Source: an uncultured Alphaproteobacteria bacterium
GTDB taxonomy: Bacteria > Pseudomonadota > Alphaproteobacteria > HIMB59 > GCA-002718135
Reading direction: 5' to 3'
DNA: 64,000 bases
NCBI GenBank assembly: GCA_902567855.1
Contig: CACFOQ010000003.1
Span: 1-64,000 of the forward strand
This document shows positions 263 to 59,108 of the stretch, in pieces. Made by a program: the position numbers and the translations under genes. Every line of letters starts with the position of its first letter. Position 1 is the first letter of the stretch. The notes under the pieces were generated by a model. It did no database searches. It was not told where the DNA came from and saw only the letters and a program-made list of their open reading frames with translations.

Positions 263-1249
263 CTAACCAAGTTTAGCGACAAGTTTCTCGGGGTTTAATT
301 TTGTGTAAGTGTTTAACAACACCATAGGATTTTTATGTCCTGAGATTAATTGAACCGTAGGAACGTCTAATCCCTTTTCTTCGAACATAATTGTAATTGC
401 ATGACGTCTTAGGTCATGCCAACGTAGGCCTTTTATCTTTGCTCTCTTTAATGCTTGTCGCCACCAAAACTTTAATGAGTGTCTAGTCATTGGAAACATA
501 CGTCCATTAAATTGTCTTGGAAGAGAACATAGAATAGTAAATGCTTTTTGGCTTAACGGTATTGTTCTATCTTCGCCGTTCTTTGTGTCATACAAAGTTA
601 CTAATCTTTTCTTAAAATTAATATGCTCGTATTTAATCTTAAGTAATTCGCCCTGGCGTACTGATGTTTCAATAGAGAATTGGACCATAGGTTTTAAATA
701 AATGTTTTCACTTAACGCACACGCCTCAATCAAACGTGATTGTTCATCATTTTCTAAGACCCTTTTCCTCGGCTTATCTTCCGTTTCTCTCTTCATCATC
801 TTACAAGGGTTATGAGGAATATAAATACCCCAATCATTGATAGCCGTTGAAATAACAACACTAATAAAATTAAAGTCCTTGTTGTATGTTGCTGACTTAA
901 CTTGATCGCAACGTCTATCTCGAAATTCGGCTAAGTGTTTAGTCGAAAATCTAAGTAGGTTTATATCGCTAATAGTATCTTTTAATAATTGGCCTACTCT
1001 ATATTCTTCGTTACGCCATTGTTTCTTAGCTTTATGTTTATTCTCTCGAATATAACGTTTAAACAAATCGCCTAACGTATTCTTACTCGCTTCGCTATAA
1101 TCGGTTGTTAACCCGGTATCTATATTTCGTTCTTGCTGACGTCCCCACTTAGACGCTTCAGCTTTAGATTTAAAAGATTTTGTTAACGTTTTAAAACCTT
1201 GTCGGCGCACAACCGTTTGCCACTTTTTGTGATGCTTTCTAACGTGCAT
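263..1249 (-). CDS. Tyrosine recombinase / phage-type integrase
   Basis: C-terminal catalytic pattern R..E (SVRQGELLKIKYEH), HDLRRHAIT, SGHKNPMVLLNTY; adjacent to a tRNA-Gly fragment. Confidence 0.93.
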   Translation of the reverse strand: MHVRKHHKKWQTVVRRQGFKTLTKSFKSKAEASKWGRQQERNIDTGLTTDYSEASKNTLGDLFKRYIRENKHKAKKQWRNEEYRVGQLLKDTISDINLLRFSTKHLAEFRDRRCDQVKSATYNKDFNFISVVISTAINDWGIYIPHNPCKMMKRETEDKPRKRVLENDEQSRLIEACALSENIYLKPMVQFSIETSVRQGELLKIKYEHINFKKRLVTLYDTKNGEDRTIPLSQKAFTILCSLPRQFNGRMFPMTRHSLKFWWRQALKRAKIKGLRWHDLRRHAITIMFEEKGLDVPTVQLISGHKNPMVLLNTYTKLNPEKLVAKLG

Positions 1250-1270
1250 TTCATCTCACTTTCTGAACGT

Positions 1271-1292
1271 GAGAGTGTCGAGAGAGTGTCGA
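1271..1292. repeat. Perfect 11-bp tandem repeat (gagagtgtcga x2) upstream of the integrase; overlaps an inverted repeat TCTCAC-N9-GTGAGA (1254-1274)
   Basis: Direct reading of sequence. Confidence 0.85.
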
Positions 1293-1375
1293 GATTACCT
1301 TTTCACTACCTACTTACTAAACTATTTGGCTTAAACGCTATGCAAACAAGGAATCAAAAATCTTGTTACACGACT

Positions 1376-1412
1376 TTGGCAAGGTTGCGCTCTACCCCTG
1401 AGCTACGCCCGC
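1376..1412 (-). pseudogene. tRNA-Gly(GCC) 5' half: acceptor 5' strand, D-arm and anticodon stem/loop (GCGGGCGTAGCTCAGGGGTAGAGCGCAACCTTGCCAA); 3' half not recognisable
   Basis: Reverse complement matches tRNA-Gly 5' half up to the end of the anticodon loop, then diverges (AGTCG cannot pair with CAACC; no CGCCCGC 3' acceptor strand). Confidence 0.75.
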
Positions 1413-3501: not shown

Positions 3502-4683
3502 CTAAACTCCCATGGCATATTTGGTAATTTGGTTTTTTATTTTTTTTGTTTTATTTATAAAAAAGAAACCACTTTTTCTAATAAGATTTATTTTTATACT
3601 TTCATCTAAAAAAATAGAATTTAATTTATCGGTGACTTGATAAAGTGAATATGCATGATGATGAGAAAGGTTATGATAATTTTTACAAACAAAATCTATT
3701 CCTAAATCTAAGCCATTCTTTTTAGCATCGGTAATAATTTTTAATAAATTTTTTACATCTCTTACACCTAAATTCCATCCTTGACCTGCAATGGGATGCA
3801 AAGAATGAGCAGAGTCTCCGACATATACTAACCTTTTATCATAAAACTTTGTATTTATATGTGCAGATAAATCAAAAACTTTGGTATCAAAAAAATTAAT
3901 TATTTCTCCAGTATAATCAAAAATTTTTTCTTCTAATATTTCTTTTCTTAAAGTTGGGTTTGTTTTTAAAAGATTTTTAGAAAAACTACTTGGATTGCTC
4001 CAAATTAATGATGAGTTATAAGTATTATTTTTTAATGACTTCATTGGAAGTAAGGCAAGCGGGCCTGATTTTAAAAAAATTTCATATGCTATATTGTTAA
4101 GGTTTTTTTTATGACTAAAATTTGTAACAAAGGCACTATGATTATATTTCTTTTTGAAAGCAGGTGTTCCAAAAATTTCTCTAATAAAACTATTTTTTCC
4201 ATCAGCACTGATTAAAAGCTTAGAAACAATTTTCTTATTACCAGAAAAAACTATTGTATTTTCTTGATTTGTTTCAATTTTTTTAAGTGGGGTATTTTGT
4301 AAAATTCTGAGATTGTGTTTTAATTTTAATAATTTGATTAATTCATATTTAATTTTACTATTTTTAACTACATAACCCAAGTTTCCTAAATTTTTTGAAT
4401 TACTAAAATTTATCTTTCTAGATATATTGCGATCAAAAACTTTAATGGTTTTTATTTTTTCACAGTGTTTATAAATACCTTTCCATATGCCTAATTCTTC
4501 AAAAAATAATTTTGAACCTTCAGCAATAGCAGTTGTTCTAAAATCTTTTTTATTTAAATCTGAAAAAATAATACCCTTATCAATTAACAAAATCCTTAAT
4601 TCAAGGGAACTTAAAGCACAAGCTGTCAAAAGGCCGGTCAAGCCTCCACCTACAATTACTACATCAGTTTTAATTTCTTTCAT
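3502..4683 (-). CDS. FAD-dependent ubiquinone biosynthesis hydroxylase (UbiH/UbiF/Coq6 family)
   Basis: DVVIVGGGLTGLLTA Rossmann motif; YVGDSAHSLHPIAGQGWNLGVRDV. Confidence 0.9.
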   Translation of the reverse strand: MKEIKTDVVIVGGGLTGLLTACALSSLELRILLIDKGIIFSDLNKKDFRTTAIAEGSKLFFEELGIWKGIYKHCEKIKTIKVFDRNISRKINFSNSKNLGNLGYVVKNSKIKYELIKLLKLKHNLRILQNTPLKKIETNQENTIVFSGNKKIVSKLLISADGKNSFIREIFGTPAFKKKYNHSAFVTNFSHKKNLNNIAYEIFLKSGPLALLPMKSLKNNTYNSSLIWSNPSSFSKNLLKTNPTLRKEILEEKIFDYTGEIINFFDTKVFDLSAHINTKFYDKRLVYVGDSAHSLHPIAGQGWNLGVRDVKNLLKIITDAKKNGLDLGIDFVCKNYHNLSHHHAYSLYQVTDKLNSIFLDESIKINLIRKSGFFFINKTKKIKNQITKYAMGV

Positions 4684-4748
4684 AATTTCCTTCGAATTAC
4701 CTTAATCTATATATAATACAAATAAATAATATTTACTAAGTTGCTGTA

Positions 4749-6974
4749 ATGCGTCTATTTATAACTGAAAAAATAAAAGCCCTTATTTTTATAATTTTTT
4801 CTATATTTTCTTTTATTTCACTCATATCCTTTAGCCCTAACGATCCTGGAATAAATTTTGTAGGCGATAACGATGAAATAACCAATATGATGGGCATATT
4901 CGGAGCATACTTTGCCAGTATTTTGTATACTTTTTTGGGTTACTCTAGCTACTTACTGCCAGTTTTTTTTATTACTCATGGTTCTATTTCTCTCGCAAGA
5001 AATAAAAGGGGGGTAGTTGCAATAAAATTAATAATTCTCTTGTTTGGAATAATTTTGTTAAATTATAGTATTTATGTTTTAGATAATAGTTTTTCTCTAT
5101 TAAGTATCTTTTTAAATGATGTTTCTAGTTCTTTGTTCGAAGAAATATTTGACTCGAAATTTTTTAGTCAAACAATATCAGTTGTACTAGGATTATTTTC
5201 TATACTTTTAATAATGTATAGCATCAATATAAACTTAAAATATTTTTCAAAATCGAGTAAATTTATCTACAATATAACTATAATAATTGCGCTACCAATA
5301 AAATTAATTTTATTGCCCTTGAAAATATTTAAAAATAAAAAACCAATTGATAATTTAACAATTAATAAAAAAAATAATAAACGAAAGGTCGAGCCAACAA
5401 TTTTAACGGGTTTTAAAAATAAAAAAGTTTTTTCAAAACATAGTGTATCTCAAAAAACTTTTGGTGAATCAAATTATATTTTACCAAATATAAATTTATT
5501 AAAAAAATCAGTTCAACAAAAATTATCTTCAAGGGAATTAGAAAAAATTAATTTAGATCTATCTAGAAAATTAGAATCAACACTAGAAGAATATGGGGTA
5601 GAAGGAAGGATTGTAAACTACAAGTCTGGACCTGTGGTAACTTTGTTTGAGTTTGTGCCAGCGGCAGGTGTTAAAACTAGTAAAATTGTTGGTTTATCTG
5701 AAGATATTGCTAGGGCTATGTCATCAATAAGCACAAGAATAGCGGCTCAGCCAGGGAAAAATAGTGTTGGCATTGAAATTCCTAATCAAAAAAGAGAAGC
5801 GGTTCTCTTAGGCGACCTAATAGATGATCAATACTTTAAGAATAGCGAGGAAGGATTAATTCTGGCTTTAGGAAAAAACATATCTGGTGAAAAAAAATTT
5901 ACAAATTTAGAAAAAATGCCCCACTTACTAATTGCTGGAACAACAGGATCGGGTAAATCTGTAGGTATTAATTCAATGATTATTAGTTTGTTATACAAGT
6001 TTACTCCTAGTGAGTGCAAATTAATTCTTATTGATCCTAAAATGCTTGAGCTCAGTGTATATGAAGATATTCCTCATTTATTGACTCCAGTTGTTACAAA
6101 TCCAAATAAAGCTGTTTATGCTCTTAAGTGGGTAGTTAGAGAAATGGAAACTCGTTATAGATTAATGAGCTCACTAAATGTTAAAAATATAAATTCTTTT
6201 AATCTAAAAATCCTAAAAGCTATCTCTAGTGGCAGAAAACTTTATAGAGAAGCTCAAACAGGAATAGACAAAGAAACGAGAAAGCCAATTATTGAAAAAA
6301 AAGAAATCAGTCTTGAAAAAATGCCATTAATAGTCGTTATAATTGATGAAATGGCTGACCTAATGATGGTTGCAGGCAAAGAAGTTGAAAACCTTGTTCA
6401 AAGATTGGCACAAATGGCAAGGGCATCAGGGATACATATAATAGCTGCTACTCAACGGCCAAGTGTTGATGTAATCACAGGAACAATAAAGGCCAACTTT
6501 CCAAGTCGAATAAGTTTTAGAGTGGCTAGTCGCTTTGACAGTAGAACAATCTTAAATGAAATGGGGGCCGAGCAACTCTTAGGTAGTGGAGATATGTTAT
6601 TCATTGAGAACGGCGCAAGCCTAAATAGAGTACATGGTGGTTTTGTATCTGAAAATGAGATTGAATCTATAGTTGAATATATTAAATCGCAGAAAACAAA
6701 TGAAACCCAGGAAGATATAACTATAGAGAATTATGAAAATGATAAACAAGCGGGCTTAGAACTTGAATTTGCAAATAAAAATGTTGATGAATTGTATGAA
6801 AAAGCAGTAAATCTTGTAATAGATCAACAAAAAGTTTCTACTAGTTTTGTTCAGAGGTACTTACAAATTGGATACAATAGAGCTGCAAGAATTGTAGAAA
6901 AAATGGAAGAAGATGGCATAATAAGTGAACCAAGTAATGCAGGAAAAAGAAATGTGCTTACTAAGAATAAGTAA
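4749..6974 (+). CDS. ftsK: DNA translocase FtsK
   Basis: N-terminal TM segments, HLLIAGTTGSGKSVGIN Walker A, C-terminal gamma domain. Confidence 0.96.
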   Translation: MRLFITEKIKALIFIIFSIFSFISLISFSPNDPGINFVGDNDEITNMMGIFGAYFASILYTFLGYSSYLLPVFFITHGSISLARNKRGVVAIKLIILLFGIILLNYSIYVLDNSFSLLSIFLNDVSSSLFEEIFDSKFFSQTISVVLGLFSILLIMYSININLKYFSKSSKFIYNITIIIALPIKLILLPLKIFKNKKPIDNLTINKKNNKRKVEPTILTGFKNKKVFSKHSVSQKTFGESNYILPNINLLKKSVQQKLSSRELEKINLDLSRKLESTLEEYGVEGRIVNYKSGPVVTLFEFVPAAGVKTSKIVGLSEDIARAMSSISTRIAAQPGKNSVGIEIPNQKREAVLLGDLIDDQYFKNSEEGLILALGKNISGEKKFTNLEKMPHLLIAGTTGSGKSVGINSMIISLLYKFTPSECKLILIDPKMLELSVYEDIPHLLTPVVTNPNKAVYALKWVVREMETRYRLMSSLNVKNINSFNLKILKAISSGRKLYREAQTGIDKETRKPIIEKKEISLEKMPLIVVIIDEMADLMMVAGKEVENLVQRLAQMARASGIHIIAATQRPSVDVITGTIKANFPSRISFRVASRFDSRTILNEMGAEQLLGSGDMLFIENGASLNRVHGGFVSENEIESIVEYIKSQKTNETQEDITIENYENDKQAGLELEFANKNVDELYEKAVNLVIDQQKVSTSFVQRYLQIGYNRAARIVEKMEEDGIISEPSNAGKRNVLTKNK

Positions 6975-52565: not shown

Positions 52566-54713
<2,148 letters not shown>

Positions 54714-57427: not shown

Positions 57428-58156
57428 TTGGATTCAGAATCTTTTTTAGAAATGTCAAGATTTGAAAAAAATCATTGGTGGTTTTGTGGACGTAGAAAAA
57501 TTATTGATTTGTTTTTAAAAAAAATAGAATTAAAAAAAAATGCTGAAATTTTGGAGATTGGTTGTGGCACTGGCTCTAATTTAAATATGTTAAAAAATTA
57601 TGGTTTTGTTTCTGCTATAGAACCAAGCGAAGAAGCTATTCATTATTTAAAAAAAAAGGATCTTACTTCAGTAAATTTTAATAAAGGCAAGTGTCCAGAA
57701 GATTTGGATTTTGAAAATAGATTTGATTTAATTTGCATGTTTGATGTTTTAGAACATATTGATGAGGATAGTGAAACTTTATCAAAAACAATTAAAGGTT
57801 TAAAAAACAATGGTAGATTATTTATAACTGTCCCAGCTTATCAATGGTTATGGAGTCAGCATGATATTAATTTAATGCATAAAAGAAGATATAACAGCAA
57901 TACATTAAAAAATTTAATAAAAAATTTTGATATTAAAATAGAGCATATAACTCACTTTAATACTATTTTATTTCCCATAGCATTATTGGATAGGATGACT
58001 CAAAAAATTATAAAAAATAATAATAAAAATAACAAATTTCCCAATTATTTTTTAAACGTTTTATTTAAAATAATCTTTAATTTTGAAAAAACATTGTTAA
58101 AGTTTTTTTATTTCCCTTTTGGTCTTTCATTGTTGCTAATTGTAAAGAAAGTTTAG
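57428..58156 (+). CDS. Class I SAM-dependent methyltransferase (TTG start)
   Basis: ILEIGCGTGSNLNML; DLICMFDVLEHI. Confidence 0.9.
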   Translation: MDSESFLEMSRFEKNHWWFCGRRKIIDLFLKKIELKKNAEILEIGCGTGSNLNMLKNYGFVSAIEPSEEAIHYLKKKDLTSVNFNKGKCPEDLDFENRFDLICMFDVLEHIDEDSETLSKTIKGLKNNGRLFITVPAYQWLWSQHDINLMHKRRYNSNTLKNLIKNFDIKIEHITHFNTILFPIALLDRMTQKIIKNNNKNNKFPNYFLNVLFKIIFNFEKTLLKFFYFPFGLSLLLIVKKV

Positions 58157-58181
58157 TATGCGTCTCGTGTACTAGGTTGAG

Positions 58182-58205
58182 CTCCTAACCTCCAGATCCG
58201 TAGTC
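58182..58205. repeat. Direct repeat copy 1 (ctcctaacctccagatccgtagtc): degenerate tRNA-Arg(ACG) 3'-half sequence
   Basis: 24-bp exact match with 58683-58706; reverse complement covers anticodon loop to 5' T-stem of tRNA-Arg. Confidence 0.9.
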
Positions 58206-58288
58206 CGTTACCCGTGCACTAGATTGTAGTACATATACGGAATTACGGGAAAAATCATTCGTTAAATGAAAAAAAATGATTTTGAAGT

Positions 58289-58310
58289 GTTCCATAAGTG
58301 GTCCATAAAA
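58289..58310. repeat. Imperfect 11-bp tandem (tgttccataag / tggtccataaa), possible recombinase arm-type sites
   Basis: Direct reading; located between the two tRNA-derived repeats. Confidence 0.45.
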
Positions 58311-58357
58311 TTATTTGTTATTGAATAGACAATAATTTTAAACTATGAAATTATAAA

Positions 58358-58579
58358 ATGAGTTTTATAAAAAAATTCTTTAATATTATTAAGAAAATAT
58401 TGTTGATAATTTTTTCTTCATATTTTTCTGTAATGACTATATTTTGGTTATTAAAGTGGTTCTCATTACCCGAAAATATTTCCGCTACAAGTTCAGGATT
58501 TTTATTTGGTAAAATATTAGGAAATTTAATTCCAGCTTTAATTCTTATTTATTTCACTCGAAGATCATTTAAAAAGTAA
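58358..58579 (+). CDS. Small predicted membrane protein (73 aa) in the tRNA-Arg scar region
   Basis: Hydrophobic segments and basic ends; no family recognised. Confidence 0.5.
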   Translation: MSFIKKFFNIIKKILLIIFSSYFSVMTIFWLLKWFSLPENISATSSGFLFGKILGNLIPALILIYFTRRSFKK

Positions 58580-58659
58580 TTTTTGAATACGGAGTGATCC
58601 GTAAGTATTCCGAATTGATAATTTATTTTCGGAACAGTAATTAAAAGTGGCTTGTACCT

Positions 58660-58711
58660 TGGCGCGCCCGAGAAGAGTCGAACTCCTAACCTCCAGATCC
58701 GTAGTCTGGCG
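58660..58711 (-). pseudogene. tRNA-Arg(ACG) 3' half (anticodon arm, T-arm, acceptor 3' strand, CCA) without a 5' half
   Basis: Reverse complement CCAGACTACGGATCTGGAGGTTAGGAGTTCGACTCTTCTCGGGCGCGCCA; upstream sequence is cupin coding DNA, not a D-arm. Confidence 0.85.
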
Positions 58712-59108
58712 ACCATTCTTTTGGTGCTAATTCAAAATCTTTGTAATCAAAGGCTGGAGCAACAGTACATCCTATTAGGGAGTATTTCCCATTACTTTTC
58801 ATACTAAACCATGAACCTGCCTTAATAATCAAATGATTATTCTCATCCTTTTCAATATTGTGTCCAAGAATTTTGGTCACTGAACTTTTTCCGTCTTCTG
58901 AAATAAATACAGACAAAGTGTCTCCACTATAAAAATGCAATATTTCATTTTTAGTTAATTTATGCCAATGGGAGTTTTGATCTTTTTTAAGTAAATAATA
59001 AATTAAGCTAACATTGTTATCTTTGTCACGAAATGATTCTGAAAAATATCCTCCTTCAGGGTGGGGAATCATTTTTAATTTTTCAATTAATTTTTCTGGA
59101 TCACTCAT
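58686..59108 (-). CDS. Cupin superfamily (DUF985-like) protein
   Basis: MIPHPEGGYFSESFRD, SHWHKLTKNEILHFYSGD, GCTVAPAFDYKDFELAPKEW; C-terminus encoded by the tRNA fragment. Confidence 0.88.
   Translation of the reverse strand: MSDPEKLIEKLKMIPHPEGGYFSESFRDKDNNVSLIYYLLKKDQNSHWHKLTKNEILHFYSGDTLSVFISEDGKSSVTKILGHNIEKDENNHLIIKAGSWFSMKSNGKYSLIGCTVAPAFDYKDFELAPKEWSPDYGSGG

Follow-up and report, generated by a model that had tools for sequence, protein, structure and literature searches.

Why does a stretch of about 0.5 kb, holding one small reading frame, lie between two tRNA-Arg 3'-half fragments, on another contig than the intact tRNA gene? We addressed this question in a 64,000-nucleotide stretch of DNA from an uncultured alphaproteobacterium (the window). 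The 24-bp direct repeat reported in the earlier note was confirmed as exact at 58182-58205 and 58683-58706, and could be extended to 30 bp at 93% identity. About 5e-10 exact occurrences of such a 24-mer are expected in a 1.35-Mb genome of the same composition, and a chance origin of the repeat is therefore excluded. The 14-mer CTACGGATCTGGAG, with one mismatch or none, was found at three sites in the whole assembly, namely the two copies in the window and a scar after lepA. The features referred to below are as follows.

57428..58156, plus strand: methyltransferase gene, on the far side of the insertion site from the cupin gene; the same neighbour in G001 and G002
58158..58205, minus strand: probable relic scar of an earlier cassette, about 48 bp, made up of core and tail CTAGTACACGAGACGCA; present in G002, absent in G001
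58182..58205, minus strand: second core (copy 1), part of the older scar that received the cassette; the same core is at the unoccupied G002 site
58206..58706, minus strand: integrated cassette, 501 bp, end of copy 1 to end of copy 2; site empty in G002 with flanks 88% and 90% identical, and ends that recur in relatives
58206..58285, minus strand: conserved cassette end, type A, immediately before the core
58286..58307, minus strand: left tandem 11-bp repeat pair, presumed integrase arm sites
58358..58579, plus strand: 73-aa membrane-like ORF, the sole cargo, no relative found
58588..58603, no strand: palindrome TACGGAGTGATCCGTA, overlapping the right arm pair
58593..58614, minus strand: right tandem 11-bp repeat pair, presumed integrase arm sites
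58660..58706, minus strand: tRNA-Arg(ACG) 3' half, anticodon loop to CCA (copy 2), serving as attachment core and right cassette end
58686..59108, minus strand: Cupin_5 (DUF985) gene (Pfam PF06172, E = 1e-37), whose 3' end is the insertion site
C2:16555-16600 of the window's own genome (L137, L166): scar where a cassette was lost, immediately following the stop codon of lepA, TCTACGGATCTGGAGCTTGGGTATCG, 16/19 to cassette ends

Copy 2 reads on the minus strand as 47 nt (58706-58660) from the anticodon loop to the CCA end, and all 47 positions are identical to the tRNA-Arg(ACG) 3' half of many sister-genus genomes, in agreement with the clean T-arm, acceptor and CCA described for it. Also as described, the tRNA 5' half was absent from both copies; ARAGORN found no tRNA gene in the window, and an Rfam search returned nothing above threshold. 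The genome-wide look for an intact tRNA-Arg(ACG) that had been proposed located the gene at C1:133426-133502. Compared with the 47-nt half, it carries three mismatches in the anticodon stem (ATCATAAGG versus ATCTGGAGG), with the T-arm and acceptor identical.

Related genomes were compared for an empty site, again as had been proposed, in a series that comprised three genomes of one genus: G001, G002 and the window's own (G000). In G001 the site is unoccupied and the junction between the cupin and methyltransferase genes reads TGGTCGCCAG-GTTA-AACTTT, without any tRNA sequence; the cupin gene there ends in SPG and a stop, whereas that of the window ends in tRNA-derived codons (DYGSGG, stop). The G002 junction contains the piece of about 48 bp, CTACGGATCTGGAGGTTAGGAGTTCAACC followed by CTAGTGTGCGGGATACG, and the window contains this piece and exactly 501 bp more. 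Since G002 has the site without the 501 bp, exactly this length is inserted in the window; its borders can slide because of the 24-bp repeat, and are drawn here at the ends of copies 1 and 2. Over its final 19 nt, the piece of about 48 bp matched cassette ends at 14 of 19 positions in G002 and at 15 of 19 in the window, a level that was reached by none of 20,000 random 19-mers. Because its tail resembles the conserved cassette end, the most plausible interpretation is that an earlier cassette left the piece behind as a scar and that the 501 bp are a second insertion, into the core of this older scar. It is equally possible, with only three genomes compared, that G002 lost the cassette through clean excision.

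These comparisons supported site-specific integration and bore out the serial integration proposed earlier, in that a 501-bp cassette stands on an older scar, but the target was the 3' end of a protein gene and not a tRNA. Integration at one tRNA was unsupported, as the intact tRNA-Arg is on another contig, its core differs, and nothing is inserted behind it in this genus. What had been described as decay of copy 1 after the core is the junction with the older scar, which is also present in G002. The reading of copy 1 as a randomly decaying tRNA fragment was dropped, since G002 has this scar too.

The 501 bp contain no integrase and only one ORF, which may not be a real gene because no relatives of it were found. 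This ORF and the 11-bp tandem repeat at 58286-58307 were both present as noted; a second, similar pair at 58593-58614 had been overlooked. The window cassette has the repeats GGACCACTTATGGAACACTT and GGAATACTTACGGATCACT at its two ends, respectively, so that the core has putative direct-repeat arm sites on both sides, which is the layout of a tyrosine-integrase attachment site. Of the two readings offered earlier, an integrase-less mini-element was supported. A decayed island end was unsupported because the interval keeps its two ends, similar arms on each side and an open ORF, and the site is empty in a relative.

When the interval was sought elsewhere, both ends recurred, next to identical tRNA halves, in genomes of the same family, but the middle did not. 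Cassettes in these genomes have, in the tRNA sense, the order tRNA half, spacer, tandem 11-bp pair, short palindrome, cargo, tandem 11-bp pair, about 80 conserved bp, and the next tRNA half. Three types of cassette end were seen. The 14 type A ends had a mean identity of 79% over 80 bp, compared to 51% for control stretches taken from further inside cassettes. The 11-bp repeats vary from one cassette to another, yet the two ends within a cassette match each other, with a mean local score of 11.9 within cassettes versus 8.3 between them (19 cassettes; permutation p = 5e-5, or 1e-4 without type B); the window cassette taken alone ranked only fourth of the 19. The arm pair GGAACACTTnnGGAACACTT was present at eight places in 163 genomes, six of them in cassettes and two in one unrelated coding gene. 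An arm-pattern match in G084/G089 lay inside an ordinary coding gene and was set aside. A class-wide search of 387 genomes with the type A end matched only the window's genome, and at that depth this end looks restricted to the order to which the genome belongs. A phage collection gave no match to most of the cassette, the matches listed being to the tRNA-Arg 3' end or to a short AT-rich stretch, and a plasmid search gave no matches.

Behind tRNA-Arg(ACG), genomes of the sister genus carry cassettes of about 0.7-5 kb, each of which closes with a further 47-nt tRNA half; a gene for a protein of 340-355 aa and groES-groEL come next. Five 47-nt cores occur within 4.3 kb in G046, and other relatives have the same tRNA-Arg(ACG) and following genes with nothing between them, which represents the empty site. 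Many cassettes in the rows are 0.7-1.5 kb long and have no integrase. The cargo of the rows includes pilin-like proteins, sulfotransferases, a methyltransferase, and HNH, MORN-repeat, trypsin-like and NAD(P)-binding proteins. The pilin-like proteins of several cassettes (in L088, G019:C12, and L078, G046:C5) have a near-identical N-terminus (MNKGFSLIELLVVVAIIGILAAVGIVAYSGYT) and diverge afterwards, and by their sequences look like a swappable pilin set. In G007 (L154, G007:C13), katG and two further genes fill the space from tRNA-Arg(ACG) to the conserved gene pair; katG of the window (52581-54713) is away from any tRNA. Contigs in L149, L152, L158 and L080 stop at or near a 47-nt tRNA half, and since several relatives' contigs end in this manner, cassette rows are probably under-counted.

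Evidence for movement came from cassettes shared between genera. Both G002, behind lepA, and G090, behind tRNA-Arg(ACG), have an integrase-less cassette with a single gene for a 248-aa protein, and their copies showed 98.2% identity over 891 bp; the copy in G097, again behind tRNA-Arg, was 96.5% identical to that of G002. The groEL identity for the same pairs was 84% and 82%, respectively. A 133-aa cassette gene was 88.5% identical between two families, and a LepA fragment had 64% protein identity when the window's family was compared with the other one. In this other family, behind tRNA-Arg(CCT), G127 (L091, G127:C35, flipped 4238-4990) has a cassette of type A that holds the 133-aa gene, and the cassette carries an exact 47-nt copy of the 3' half of that tRNA, i.e., the same design with a different tRNA. 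The comparisons of the 248-aa and 133-aa cassettes therefore indicate that integrase-less cassettes move and that their target can change. The bacteria studied here, with their small genomes, appear to swap genes by means of such cassettes. These sequence comparisons show the insertion with its two ends, the unoccupied site and the older scar, as well as the rows in relatives, the recent transfer of an integrase-less cassette and the matching of arms within cassettes.

The tRNA-Arg(ACG) gene is in its conserved place before groES-groEL in all three genomes of the window's genus, and the site behind it is empty in G000, G001 and G002. Cassettes or scars are found instead behind lepA and behind the cupin gene; the 3' end of lepA has two cassettes in G002, is unoccupied in G003, and in the window's genome bears the scar listed above. 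Among the genomes inspected, an insertion was present behind the tRNA in 12 of 16 genomes with a matching anticodon stem versus none of nine with a changed stem (p = 0.0005), and in 8 of 12 versus none of nine in a stricter genome set (p = 0.005), an association that is suggestive only, because the genomes are related and hence non-independent and the classes were assigned by the analyst. We infer that the stem change caused the move away from the tRNA.

No integrase adjoins the cassette in the window. The earlier note would have been refuted by relatives that show the same arrangement but include no integrase bearer; this does not apply, as G043 has a larger element with a tyrosine integrase directly behind tRNA-Arg(ACG) (L090). 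Upstream of integrase genes in relatives the arm-palindrome layout of the cassettes recurs, with a tandem 11-bp pair followed by a motif such as TTTCAGAAAGTGAG and the start codon. Such a layout is that expected of arm-type tyrosine integrase sites. No further member of the L090 integrase family was found in the rows among the cargo proteins scanned, no integrase bearing the arm sequence of the window cassette was found when the arm pair was sought in 163 genomes, and integrases of the phage collection had at most 37% identity among the matches listed. The window does encode a tyrosine integrase (263-1249, minus strand), 57 kb from the cassette, which is 59% identical to the L090 integrase and has tandem 11-bp arms at 1272-1293; since its arms differ (CTCGACACTCT), it was set aside as the mobiliser. 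The contig begins 262 bp past this integrase, and the other end of the integrase element is therefore missing. Its locus (263-1412, minus strand) lies behind only the 5' half of a tRNA-Gly(GCC) (1377-1412), and an intact tRNA-Gly(GCC) was absent from the tRNAs found in the 82%-complete assembly. Integrases of the same family at four loci of relatives (L107, L110, L111 and L115) are located behind tRNA-Leu, tRNA-His and tRNA-Ser, and only the 5' part of the tRNA is recognisable there. From these sequences, some elements seem to break the tRNA or to rebuild it from the other side.

On the whole, the interval is likely to be a single non-autonomous integrative cassette of 501 bp, with its own attachment site and one small ORF, moved by an integrase supplied in trans; a circle of 501 bp is very small, which counts against this reading. 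We infer the trans-acting integrase, the circle and the binding of arms as follows. A tyrosine integrase provided in trans by a phage or an integrative element would bind the arms of the circular cassette and join its anticodon-loop core, by recombination, to a matching core in the chromosome. The junction of the 501-bp circle would consist of the cassette end CTAGTGCACGGGTAACG joined to GACTACGG...GCGCGCCAAGGTACAAG. In the sister genus the core would be tRNA-Arg(ACG), and as every insertion would rebuild the tRNA and leave another usable core, cassettes would pile up in rows. In the window's genus, where the anticodon stem is changed, cassettes would enter the 3' ends of the cupin and lepA genes instead, and deletion between core and cassette end would leave a reusable scar. 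In the window, a new cassette may then have entered the core that remained of an older cassette after most of it was deleted. We also put forward, tentatively and at less than even confidence, a wider system, integron-like but without attC, of integrase-less circles from below 1 kb to a few kb, in which a tRNA half is the target, an 11-bp arm code would choose the visiting integrase, and protein-gene 3' ends and old scars would be used once the host tRNA core changes.

Alternatively, a larger integrase-bearing element could have entered at this place and then shrunk by internal deletion, in which the integrase and most of the cargo were lost, with the interval as its collapsed remnant. Deletions of this kind occur, as the scars at cupin and lepA are cassettes cut to about 40-50 bp, and integrase-bearing relatives of the same design exist. 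The interval nonetheless still has its two ends, the two arm pairs and an open ORF, and integrase-less cassettes of 0.7-1.5 kb are common; three genomes share near-identical copies of one of these, at two kinds of site, and it is therefore the small form that moves. We therefore regard a collapsed remnant as unlikely. A stack of two 3' fragments, neither of which has a 5' half, would also fit the boundary of a decayed island, with the fragments as random accretion leftovers at a nearby tRNA-Arg since lost or moved, but tRNA-Arg(ACG) is in a conserved place on another contig in all three same-genus genomes, and the cupin-methyltransferase junction of G001 has no tRNA sequence, which makes such an origin highly improbable. 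That the two 24-bp copies are an assembly artefact has the slimmest chance of all: contigs of G006, G008 and G089 end at or near the 47-nt core, showing that the core can break assemblies, but synteny with G001 and G002 is kept on either side of the insert, which is itself a whole cassette with its two ends, and a wrong join would not produce this.

Streamlined bacteria have few mobile-element genes, yet their gene content differs. If the cassette reading is true, an element made up of only an attachment site and a gene, with a borrowed integrase, would allow genes to be gained at nearly no genome cost. The arm repeats would predict directly which integrase mobilises which cassette, and the anticodon-stem change would be a natural experiment on an altered target tRNA.

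Several known systems resemble this arrangement. In the tRNA-Lys islands of 'Ca. Methylopumilus', as far as the published account describes them, repeats of the tRNA end separate cassettes, with units from 330 bp (PMC10872708), and tRNA direct-repeat cassettes are described in 'Ca. Actinomarinales' (PMC7771536). Like these additive flexible genomic islands, the cassettes of the relatives are adjacent to a tRNA, bear repeats of its 3' end and vary in number between strains of streamlined aquatic bacteria; transfer of cassettes between genera is reported there too (PMC10872708, PMC7771536). The window unit is likewise bounded by tRNA 3'-end repeats, with the 501 bp absent in G002, but it lies at the cupin 3' end and not at a tRNA gene, where its relatives' cassettes are. 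The genomes compared here represent another clade, probably the marine HIMB59/AEGEAN-169 order to judge from genome size, gene content and relatives. For the phosphate islands of HIMB59, no tRNA is reported at the borders (PMC10734472). The ssrA-specific islands of Dehalococcoides, 15 of which lack an integration module and were proposed to be cis-mobilizable, are similar, in the part of the report concerned with them, in their tandem arrangement behind a single RNA gene, the 3' end of which is repeated at the border of each island; they differ in using serine recombinases and ssrA and in carrying dehalogenase genes (PMC3146451), whereas here the known family member is a tyrosine integrase and units go down to 0.5 kb.

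A CIME also has attL and attR flanks and no recombination or transfer genes, as does the window cassette with its two att sites, but is moved in cis by an adjoining element. The cassettes here stand alone with no integrase neighbour, and a helper in trans is therefore indicated. Tycheposons are similar as tRNA-targeted cargo elements of marine bacteria, but are given as 4-200 kb with a tyrosine recombinase in the one account consulted (PMC10872708), compared to 501 bp and no recombinase in the window. Unlike a phage satellite, the 501 bp hold no regulatory or replication genes. In their working the cassettes are like integron gene cassettes, i.e., rows of small recombinase-less units with the recombinase encoded elsewhere; they differ in having tRNA 3' halves and paired arm repeats at their borders and in forming rows beside a tRNA. 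Islands of tRNA-flanked cassettes are thus already known, and the sub-kb, arm-coded form with its sites away from the tRNA is a variant of them. What it adds to the islands, as the cited accounts describe them, is matched tandem arms and conserved ends on sub-kb units that carry no integrase, together with insertions and scars at protein-gene 3' ends where the tRNA core has changed.
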